Below are positions 13,916 to 16,313 of a stretch of DNA of 32,477 nt, piece after piece. The stretch comes from Deltaproteobacteria bacterium (GTDB lineage Bacteria > Myxococcota_A > Polyangia > GCA-2747355). The stretch is taken from NCBI GenBank assembly GCA_019314525.1, contig JAFCZD010000007.1, positions 1-32,477 of the forward strand, read 5' to 3'. Each line of letters begins with the position of its first letter. The first letter of the stretch is position 1. The notes under the pieces are model-generated. The model saw only the letters and a program-made list of their open reading frames with translations, was not told the origin of the DNA and did no database searches. The translations under genes and the position numbers were made by a program.

Positions 13916-14767
13916 CTACATCGGCTGGGCGAAACCCTTCCTCACCAGCTCGGCGTTGAGGTGGCGACCTTTGGAAAAAACCCGCTGCTCGTTCTCGACG
14001 CCGGGCGCGTAGAAGATATGCCCGACATAGCGGCCGTAGAGATCAACCTTGTTGGTCTTGACCACGACGAAGGGAACCTTCGCCAAGGTGTCGCGGACGA
14101 AGTCGCGAGCGTCTCTTCCTGCCTTCTCGCCCAGTGGCGGGGTATCTAGCCGCGCCAGGCGCACGCGTTGTCGCTTCAGCACGTGAAAGCCAAGATCGAT
14201 CACGAGCAACAAGGTGTCACCGTCGATCACCCGCTCAACGGTAGCCTTGTAGACGTAGGTCGCTTCCTGGGGGCGGGGCAGAGCCTTGCTCTTTCCGGTG
14301 GCTCCTGGCGCTACAAGGCAGGCTTGGGCATGGGCGTCATGGTGGATGGCGTCGACGAGCTGGCGCACAGTCCACTCACTCGTGGCCGTCTGTGCTTCGT
14401 ACCAGGCGCGGACGTCGTCGTCTTTGACGCGTACCAACTCACGATAGTGTGCCCAGCGTAAGCCCATATGTTCGGTGGGGACCTCGGGATAGAGGCGGGC
14501 GAAGAGCATCGCTCGTTGCAACACCCGCAGGTTGAGGTTCAGCTCGTCTCCGAGTTCGCGCAGAATGCCACTTCCATAGCCCGCACGCTCCGTTAGCTCT
14601 TCGGCGATGATGCGTTGACCGAGCCCATGATAGGTGCGCACAAGCTCACGGCCCAAGGCGGCTTCGGCGCGAGCTTTGCCCTCTTCCAGTAGTTGGCGGA
14701 GATCTGCGAGGAGGCGGTTGTAGGAGCGCTTGGAGAGCACGAGTTCGGCGTTGGTGGTCTTGGCCAT
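13916..14767 (-). CDS. DUF1016_N (YhcG-type N-terminal) domain fused to a staphylococcal-nuclease-like domain
   Basis: The protein has 283 residues. Residues 10-145 match the DUF1016 N-terminal domain (LLADLRQLLEEGKARAEAALGRELVRTYHGLGQRI, GYGSGILRELGDEL, WAHYRELVRV), a helical module found in nuclease-like YhcG proteins. Residues 172-283 are a thermonuclease fold: RVIDGDT (metal-binding D182, D184), RLARLDTP (R203 and D208 match Arg35 and Asp40), LYGR (R246 matches Arg87). The residue at the catalytic Glu43 position is Pro211, so normal catalysis is doubtful. No signal peptide is present, so it should act in the cytoplasm, presumably on nucleic acid. AGGAGA precedes the ATG, and a perfect inverted repeat lies 10 bp upstream. 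It is the only cytoplasmic-type gene amid exported-protein genes, which suggests acquisition. Confidence 0.85.
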   Translation of the reverse strand: MAKTTNAELVLSKRSYNRLLADLRQLLEEGKARAEAALGRELVRTYHGLGQRIIAEELTERAGYGSGILRELGDELNLNLRVLQRAMLFARLYPEVPTEHMGLRWAHYRELVRVKDDDVRAWYEAQTATSEWTVRQLVDAIHHDAHAQACLVAPGATGKSKALPRPQEATYVYKATVERVIDGDTLLLVIDLGFHVLKRQRVRLARLDTPPLGEKAGRDARDFVRDTLAKVPFVVVKTNKVDLYGRYVGHIFYAPGVENEQRVFSKGRHLNAELVRKGFAQPM

Positions 14768-14777
14768 GAAGGATCTC

Positions 14778-14814
14778 CTAAAACAATACGACCACCGTGG
14801 TCGTATTGTTTTAG
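14778..14814. repeat. Perfect 37-bp inverted repeat (18-bp arms, 1-nt centre)
   Basis: The arm CTAAAACAATACGACCAC (14778-14795) is exactly complementary to 14797-14814, around the single base at 14796. It sits between the stop of the FG-GAP lipoprotein gene (14832) and the start of the DUF1016-nuclease gene (14767), and its near edge overlaps the ribosome-site region. It could be an operator for the nuclease gene, a terminator for the lipoprotein gene (long stem with a T-rich edge), or both. Confidence 0.9.
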
Positions 14815-14835
14815 TCTAGCATGGCGCTCTCTCAA
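14808..14835 (-). promoter_or_regulatory. Candidate promoter for the DUF1016-nuclease gene
   Basis: On the minus strand TTGAGA (14830-14835) and TAAAAC (14808-14813) are 16 nt apart. The -10 box lies in the outer arm of the inverted repeat, so a protein bound to the repeat would block initiation. This is inferred from sequence match only. Confidence 0.3.
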
Positions 14836-16313
14836 TACCCGCTCAAGTCAGCGAAGTAGACCGCGCCTGTGGCGCTGACGAGCCCGTCGGCCTCAGGCGC
14901 GCCGATCACCGCCCAATCCCCAAAGATGGCCAACTGGTAGCCAAATTGGGCTCCATCCACCGCAGCGTTGGGCAAGAAGGTGGCGCGCAATTGCCAGGCT
15001 CCAGCCGCGTTCACGTAGAGAAACGCAGCCCCATGGTCAGACCCGGCGAGGTCACTCCGCGACGCCCCCACCAAGACACGATGACCAGCCGAAGGTTCAA
15101 TCGCTACGTTGCGTCCCACCCAATCACCCGCTTGGATGCCTGGGGGGTGTAGCTGAATGTTCTCGGTCCAAGCCGAGCCGGCGTCTTCGAATGCATACGC
15201 TGTGCCCGTCAACGCGGCGGGCCCCCGACGGTGGGCACCAATGATCGCTCGGGTGCTCGCCATGCTGAGACCCACTCCGAATTCATCGCCGGCGCTGCCA
15301 TCGCTGGCCACAAGCTTCTCGCGTTCTGTCCAGGTGCCGCCGTTGAGTTCGAATCGATAGACCGCGCCTGCGTCTTCATCCTGACTGTCTTGGAGCTCGG
15401 CCGTAATCAACGCTTGGGTGTCGTGAAGGTCCAAATAGCTGCCAAAATGATCACCCACAGCACCGTCGCTGGCGAGGAGGAAAGCCTCCTCGCTCCACGC
15501 GTCGCCATCGTAGTGAAACATCGTCGCAGAGCCCGAGTTGGCCCCCTGTGTGCCGTCAAAACGGCAGCCGATGAGGATTCGATCGCCCCAGATGGCGACG
15601 GTTTCACCGAAATAGCGCCACGCTGCTGGCGACGATTGGGTGAGCCTCTGCTCCTGCACCCAGGTGGTGCCATTGAAACGAAATACGTAGGCCGCGCCTG
15701 CTCGATGAGCAAACTGACTGTCACCATCTGCCCCAACCACGATGACGTCACCCTGAATGTCTACGTAACGGCCAAAGCGGTCGTCGAGCTGGAGCCCAGG
15801 AGGGTTCAACTTTTCTTCGAGTTTCCACGCGGCACCGTCAAAGCGATAGATGTAAACCGCACCCGTCTTGATCCCTCCAATGGGGGCCCCGTGGGCACCG
15901 ATCACGGCCACGGGGCCATCGATGGCCACAGCGTGACCGAAGAGGTCGCCCGTGTCTCCGTCGGGAGCCACCACACGCTGGCTCGGTGTACAAGTGGAGA
16001 GCAGACAGGGCCCGCTGTCACTAGAGGCGTCTGGTGAAACAGCGTCTGGGACTACAGCGTCTGGGACCACAGCATCCTGGACTGCGGCATCTGGGACTGC
16101 GGCGTCTGGGACTGCGGCGTCTGGTGAAACAGCGTCTGGTGAAACAGCGTCCAGGACGACAGCGTCCGGCACGACAGCGTCTTCCGCCAGGGGCTTGAAG
16201 CCAACACGCGTACATCCGCCAACGAGAACACTCAACATGAGGGCGAGACAGAGCCTCCATGAGCCCCTGGTGAATTGACCACGCCAGGCGATGTGATCCT
16301 CACGCTCCCTCAA
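14832..16313 (-). CDS. FG-GAP repeat lipoprotein (integrin-alpha-like propeller)
   Basis: The start is TTG at 16313, supported by GAGGAGG about 7 nt upstream. The protein has 493 residues. A signal peptide ends in lipobox VGGC (Cys34). After a CTRVGF motif, about 50 residues are pentapeptide repeats of the type DAVVP/DAVSP. From about residue 115 there are seven FG-GAP-type units, each opening with a DxFG/FGxxVAI-like turn and closing with a VIGA-like strand (FGHAVAI, FGRYVDI, FGETVAI, FGSYLDL, FGVGLSM, VGRNVAI, FGYQLAI). Seven units fit a complete seven-bladed propeller. It is likely anchored to the outer membrane with the propeller held outward for binding. No enzyme motif is seen. Confidence 0.88.
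   Translation of the reverse strand: MREREDHIAWRGQFTRGSWRLCLALMLSVLVGGCTRVGFKPLAEDAVVPDAVVLDAVSPDAVSPDAAVPDAAVPDAAVQDAVVPDAVVPDAVSPDASSDSGPCLLSTCTPSQRVVAPDGDTGDLFGHAVAIDGPVAVIGAHGAPIGGIKTGAVYIYRFDGAAWKLEEKLNPPGLQLDDRFGRYVDIQGDVIVVGADGDSQFAHRAGAAYVFRFNGTTWVQEQRLTQSSPAAWRYFGETVAIWGDRILIGCRFDGTQGANSGSATMFHYDGDAWSEEAFLLASDGAVGDHFGSYLDLHDTQALITAELQDSQDEDAGAVYRFELNGGTWTEREKLVASDGSAGDEFGVGLSMASTRAIIGAHRRGPAALTGTAYAFEDAGSAWTENIQLHPPGIQAGDWVGRNVAIEPSAGHRVLVGASRSDLAGSDHGAAFLYVNAAGAWQLRATFLPNAAVDGAQFGYQLAIFGDWAVIGAPEADGLVSATGAVYFADLSGY
16030..16181. repeat. Degenerate 15-bp tandem repeats in the FG-GAP lipoprotein gene
   Basis: Roughly ten imperfect 15-bp units (plus strand variants of GCGTCTGGGACTGCG) encode the pentapeptides PDAVV, PDAVS and PDAAV. 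They form the flexible linker between lipid anchor and propeller and keep the reading frame. Confidence 0.85.

Follow-up and report, generated by a model that had tools for sequence, protein, structure and literature searches.

A perfect 37-bp palindrome beside a DUF1016–SNase gene as a proposed DNA site of the adjacent protein

A perfect palindrome just upstream of a DUF1016–SNase gene is probably the DNA site of the protein encoded there, which would bind it as a dimer in the manner of ParB and Noc and would switch off its own gene. The palindrome lies in a stretch of 32,477 nucleotides from a Deltaproteobacteria bacterium (contig JAFCZD010000007.1, assembly GCA_019314525.1; hereafter the window). 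We favour this reading because paralogues and distant relatives carry palindromes of their own and the N-terminal domain of the protein resembles ParB and Noc in its predicted fold, and also because the palindrome core occupies four places in the genome with none for the control, the arms co-vary, and dispersed copies in other genomes mostly match gene-linked palindromes.

The palindrome and its copies in the genome of the window

The palindrome is composed of two 18-nt arms around a single central base (arm CTAAAACAATACGACCAC, centre C, arm GTGGTCGTATTGTTTTAG) that are 100% complementary, and a preliminary description of this DNA was exact in its position and pairing. The same description called such arms rare by chance, which the calculation bears out: at the base composition of the window, equally perfect arms are expected 2.3e-6 times per window and 5e-4 times per 7.57-Mb genome, and the runner-up palindrome in the window has arms of only 10 nt. 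The palindrome is situated 10 bp upstream of the DUF1016–SNase gene (ATG at 14767) and, as had been described, 17 bp from the stop codon of the gene behind it and in contact with the ribosome-site region (Table 1). We do not think that this upstream lipoprotein-like gene is part of the palindrome/DUF1016 system. The claim that the palindrome covers a −10 box is weak, as a promoter can be drawn there by eye (Table 1) but a scan with the sigma-70 consensus gave none above threshold. As RNA, the palindrome folds with about −25 kcal/mol (z about −5) and its AAAA..TTTT ends give it the shape of an A-tract, stem and T-tract; a scan for intrinsic terminators found none, the T-rich part of the palindrome falls within the stem, and Rfam had no match anywhere in the window.

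Table 1. Features at and around the palindrome (positions in the window)
Feature	Position	Strand	Remarks
DUF1016_N + SNase-fold protein gene, 283 aa	13916–14767	minus	PF17761 8.5e-20, PF00565 4.9e-7; AlphaFold2 mean pLDDT 90.5
DUF1016_N domain, aa 1–152, all-helical	14312–14767	minus	AlphaFold2 pLDDT 92.5; HTH-like helices 65–75 and 80–92; predicted ParB/Noc-like fold
SNase domain, aa 201–281 (Pfam)	13925–14167	minus	SNase fold of the model begins near aa 172
Perfect 37-bp palindrome	14778–14814	none	proposed as a parS/NBS-like cognate site for the DUF1016 protein; may be an autoregulatory operator
Conserved core AATACGACCACCGTGGTCGTATT	14785–14807	none	common to G000:C449:16304–16326, C699:269–291 and C650:2330–2352 (one mismatch)
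Shine-Dalgarno-like GGAG	14775–14778	minus	read from the sequence; 7 nt before ATG; one base common with the palindrome
Weak possible promoter TTGAGA-N16-TAAAAC	14808–14835	minus	−35 at 14835–14830, −10 at 14813–14808 inside the palindrome; drawn by eye
Upstream FG-GAP-repeat lipoprotein-like gene	14832–16313	minus	PF14312, 7 repeats

The core AATACGACCACNGTGGTCGTATT was found at three further places in the same genome, all intergenic (contigs C449, C699 and, with one mismatch, C650), while the reversed-pattern control gave 0; a shorter core pattern with 3 mismatches added one weak match, against 1 for the control in the same genome. The likeness among the four copies stops at the edges of the palindrome, no target-site duplications were seen around them, and the genes beside the dispersed copies have no function in common; two of the sites precede start codons by 81 and 56 bp. 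Beyond the core the arms are still palindromic but not identical (window CTAA/TTAG, C699 GAG/CTC), and half-sites alone occur at chance-level frequency and are not palindromic at other places. The exact core had 0 matches in GTDB genomes (257 Gb) outside that of the window and 0 in IMG/VR viral contigs, and with up to 2 mismatches it had 0 in 95 relatives. Thus the sequence itself is confined to the genome of the window, and what is conserved is the arrangement alone. Repeats of the ATTCCCGTTTTCACGGGAATGACG type are found close to one of the dispersed copies (L069 160–620, on G000:C699).

The genome contains further DUF1016–SNase genes with palindromes: ACGAACTCGGAGTTCGT lies 1 bp before the start codon in C843 and has no dispersed copy, C329 and C707 have two tandem units (GGTTCCGC..GCGGAACC), and C719 has CGGTTCCGAACCCGCGGTTCGGAACCG. 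The palindromes of the paralogues are thus not all alike, and each protein would have its own address. Among these paralogues, C329 has GETL where the others have GDTL, and the one on C707 (L052, 489–1424), behind its two tandem palindrome copies, is frameshifted.

The DUF1016 protein and the palindromes of its relatives

The DUF1016_N domain of the window protein scores 71.7 bits against a cut-off of 32.8, which places the protein in the DUF1016 family, and its C-terminal half is an SNase domain in place of the PDDEXK domain YhcG_C, which places it outside YhcG proper. The DUF1016-nuclease gene that had been reported beside the palindrome is therefore present, in an SNase form and not the PDDEXK form. 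Residues D182, D184, R203, D208 and R246 correspond to staphylococcal D19, D21, R35, D40 and R87; the equivalents of D21, R35, D40 and R87 are kept and the position of E43 is occupied by P211. Judged by these residues, the SNase domain of the window clade, which has no equivalent of the catalytic Glu43, may be weak.

When the model of the DUF1016_N domain was compared with the PDB by Foldseek, the leading neighbours were DNA-binding domains of Noc, ParB, Spo0J and SopB (7ng0, 7nfu, 6y93, 6sdk, 7ol9 and 1vz0; prob 0.98–1.00, E 0.07–0.3), several of them solved on their palindromic sites, and the strength of the matches was modest overall (E 0.07–1, TM about 0.5). On this predicted model, the domain has the fold of the ParB HTH domain. 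The Pfam family HTH_ParB gave weak matches in 12/30 members (best 5.7e-5; 0.1 for the window protein, under the 22.6-bit cut-off), mostly below the Pfam cut-off, as were those of them that were re-run singly, and E. coli YhcG had no match to it; a profile search of PDB sequences put Spo0J (6sdk) first with E 0.01. The domain thus resembles a ParB/Noc-type HTH fold in the model, and the weak sequence matches agree with this. Only DUF1016_N and SNase were found in the window protein, and the CTP-binding N-terminal domain of ParB was not. Its N-domain alone also matched PDC-S02 of PADLOC, a candidate defence system (2.3e-24), and its phage matches, among those listed, were SNase-only or partial.

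A locus scan with a narrow alignment gave 80 loci in relatives, 61 of DUF1016–SNase and 19 of SNase-only genes. Strict palindromes were present in or near 29/61 of the former versus 0/19 of the latter. In the window clade, 11/21 genes had a palindrome that scored >=8 and lay no more than 100 bp from the start, compared to 10/222 other ORFs (Fisher 2e-8, with related loci counted as independent, as in all our Fisher tests on this association), and 10/21 had no clear upstream palindrome. Overall the palindromes lie upstream of the gene, downstream of it or in frame inside the ORF, there mostly at a single position of the protein. This position, in Opitutaceae and in many Omnitrophota, follows the second HTH-like helix and precedes the LxWSHY motif, and the peptide varies there (IVQTSAQL, IVRGHAQL, IPAALPEL) while the DNA stays palindromic; in Leptospiraceae the in-ORF palindrome sits further downstream, past the DUF1016_N core. 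Palindromes inside ORFs or right before starts are often free of T-tracts. A lack of recurrence near homologues had been named beforehand as something that would speak against the idea; palindromes do recur there, with different sequences, so that the idea is not refuted by this test, and we regard the pairing of gene and palindrome in the DUF1016 family as well supported. Inverted repeats GAAGCAATC..GATTGCTTC, common to different genomes (L110 and L123), look like a separate REP-like family.

YhcG has been assigned a PDDEXK domain akin to that of Holliday-junction resolvases, next to a helical N-domain (PMC1189080). The yhcG gene of E. coli K-12 (L095 5828–6995) has three in-frame palindromes inside it and one just downstream, all four with the same core CAGACNNNGTCTG and different outer arms. 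Among E. coli strains these palindromes vary in sequence and number (with deletions of 39 nt and about 80 nt), and the few mismatches on the sense strand, in a small sample of alleles, are A-C or C-A and not G-U. BLAST with one of the palindromes hit, in the median genome, 2 places, the best of them in yhcG; for a palindrome these may be a single site matched in both orientations. Plasmid YhcG genes have in-ORF palindromes too, with a different core in Paraburkholderia; of 8 that were read, two (L248 and L253) had no palindrome at the threshold used and a third had one outside the gene only. On plasmids L252 and L253, YhcG genes have BREX pglX and a Shedu-family gene as immediate neighbours, and restriction-modification genes on either side.

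The palindrome arms co-vary base for base in two sets (0.774 versus 0.169 and 0.329 versus 0.064; 0/500 shuffles in each), a measure of the freedom to change while palindromicity is kept and not an unbiased rate, since the rows had been chosen as palindromes. Dispersed copies are found in other genomes as well. Those in G070 are of two main types, each of which also stands beside a DUF1016 gene of G070, and in G077, G057, G043 and partly in Leptospiraceae they agree, exactly or with slight changes, with a palindrome linked to a DUF1016 gene of their own genome; some, such as L225, have no gene-linked partner. In G070 and G077 the dispersed copies have 100–260 bp in common, either among themselves or with the DUF1016 locus. 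The AAAAGT..ACTTTT palindromes of L198–L206 (G077) and L190–L197 (G070) are parts of longer repeats in which a TGGACA-N16/17-TATAGG-like stretch, possibly a promoter, is conserved; in G070 this stretch and the 3′ end of the DUF1016 gene overlap. Compared with L197, the copy at L191, which has no DUF1016 gene nearby, keeps about 75 bp of the 3′ coding end of that gene and looks like a deletion derivative. This remnant and the longer repeats indicate that a larger element was also copied in these two genomes.

Proposed function and alternative explanations

We infer from these comparisons that a symmetric dimer of the protein would bind the palindrome through the DUF1016_N domain, with its predicted ParB/Noc-type HTH. 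The site spans the leader, and probably also the −10 region, and touches the ribosome site, so that binding would repress the gene; the three further genomic copies would be extra docking sites or remnants of an element that may have spread, and the SNase domain could also have a role. Of the uses offered in the preliminary description, that as a nuclease-like protein's own binding site is the best supported, by the palindromes of relatives and by the modelled N-domain. Use as an operator fits the position and would be a likely consequence of such binding. Against our reading stand the modest Foldseek E-values, the HTH_ParB matches mostly below the cut-off, the greater length of the palindrome compared with parS or NBS, the 10/21 clade genes with no clear upstream palindrome, L248 and L253 with none at the threshold used, and the absence of a promoter above the threshold of the scan; moreover, a bare operator does not explain the sequence shared by the copies of G070 and G077.

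RAYT transposases are thought to help REPs spread, and the palindromes could be mobile in a REP- or MITE-like way, with the DUF1016 nuclease acting on a hairpin or cruciform and aiding their spread from the copy at its own gene. We consider this unlikely, even though the dispersed copies adjoin unrelated genes in several genomes, those of G070 and G077 share 100–260 bp, L191 retains its coding remnant, E. coli yhcG alleles differ in the number and sequence of in-ORF palindromes, and the genome of the window (84% complete) has 0 matches to the Y1/RAYT transposase (PF01797). There are just four copies in this genome with nothing in common beyond the palindrome, target duplications are not seen, and the Glu43 equivalent is lost in the window clade. 

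The other explanations concern the transcript or another protein. That the palindrome terminates the lipoprotein transcript, as had also been suggested, in the form of an intrinsic, possibly bidirectional terminator with an A-tract, GC stem and T-rich tail, agrees with its distance from the stop codon, its folding energy and the AAAA..TTTT ends, which recur in the AAAAGT..ACTTTT groups; but the terminator scan was negative, the arms recur precisely at unrelated places, and many palindromes of relatives lie inside ORFs or before starts, often with no T-tract, which makes termination improbable as a general function despite the suitable shape here. It is still less probable that the DUF1016 nuclease binds or cuts a hairpin of its own mRNA. 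The hairpin in the leader or ORF is strong and has compensatory pairs; however, the ParB-like fold points to DNA, symmetric dimer sites explain the co-variation equally, and the few E. coli mismatches, in a small sample, are of the A-C/C-A kind. Least probable of all, we think, is that the palindrome serves as operator for a different regulator (TetR-like or similar), whose small regulon would include the ABC-F and metallophosphoesterase genes: the two dispersed sites upstream of start codons would suit it, but it leaves unexplained why DUF1016 genes of many phyla have their own palindromes, also in the ORF.

Comparison with known systems

We found no description of palindromes of DUF1016, yhcG or COG4804 genes in the literature, mostly openly accessible papers. 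We tentatively propose, as a possibility that goes beyond the window, that DUF1016 proteins including E. coli YhcG are a widespread nuclease-based counterpart of ParB-parS, with a private palindrome in or beside their own gene that is kept perfect while its sequence changes and that sometimes spreads as a small mobile unit. DUF1016/YhcG proteins are common (E. coli, hundreds of plasmids, several phyla) and are predicted nucleases that may have a part in defence. Should every member bring along a recognition site in or beside its gene, the genome itself would reveal the target, and the function of the whole family could be tested directly. Palindromes in coding sequence that remain perfect while the encoded amino acids change are also unusual by themselves.

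In ParB and Noc, symmetric dimers bind palindromes by way of the HTH domain, and Noc is believed to descend from a duplicated parB whose specificity changed (PMC7383237). The DUF1016 system would share with ParB-parS, Noc-NBS and the KorB operators the HTH fold, as it appears in the model, palindromic sites in few copies and specificity that diverges between paralogues. In contrast to ParB and Noc, the DUF1016 protein has a nuclease domain (SNase or PDDEXK) instead of the N-terminal CTP-binding domain, and its palindromes (23–37 bp) are longer than parS or NBS (16 bp). In B. subtilis a parS lies within the spo0J gene itself, to which the DUF1016 genes with internal palindromes can be likened.

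Within the YhcG/DUF1016 family (COG4804, PADLOC candidate PDC-S02), the window protein shares DUF1016_N with YhcG, whose genes have in-ORF palindromes, whereas in the window SNase replaces PDDEXK and the palindrome is upstream and not inside. REP/RAYT (TnpA-REP) systems likewise have short extragenic palindromes that are tied to a single gene and dispersed over the genome that carries it, while the DUF1016 protein has no HuH/Y1 domain, none is found in the genome, and the copies are few, near-perfect and also in-ORF. Finally, Rickettsia palindromic elements of about 100–150 nt insert in many genes (PMC4316617); like them, DUF1016 palindromes are found in frame within coding sequences, but they are about 20–37 bp long and tied to one family.
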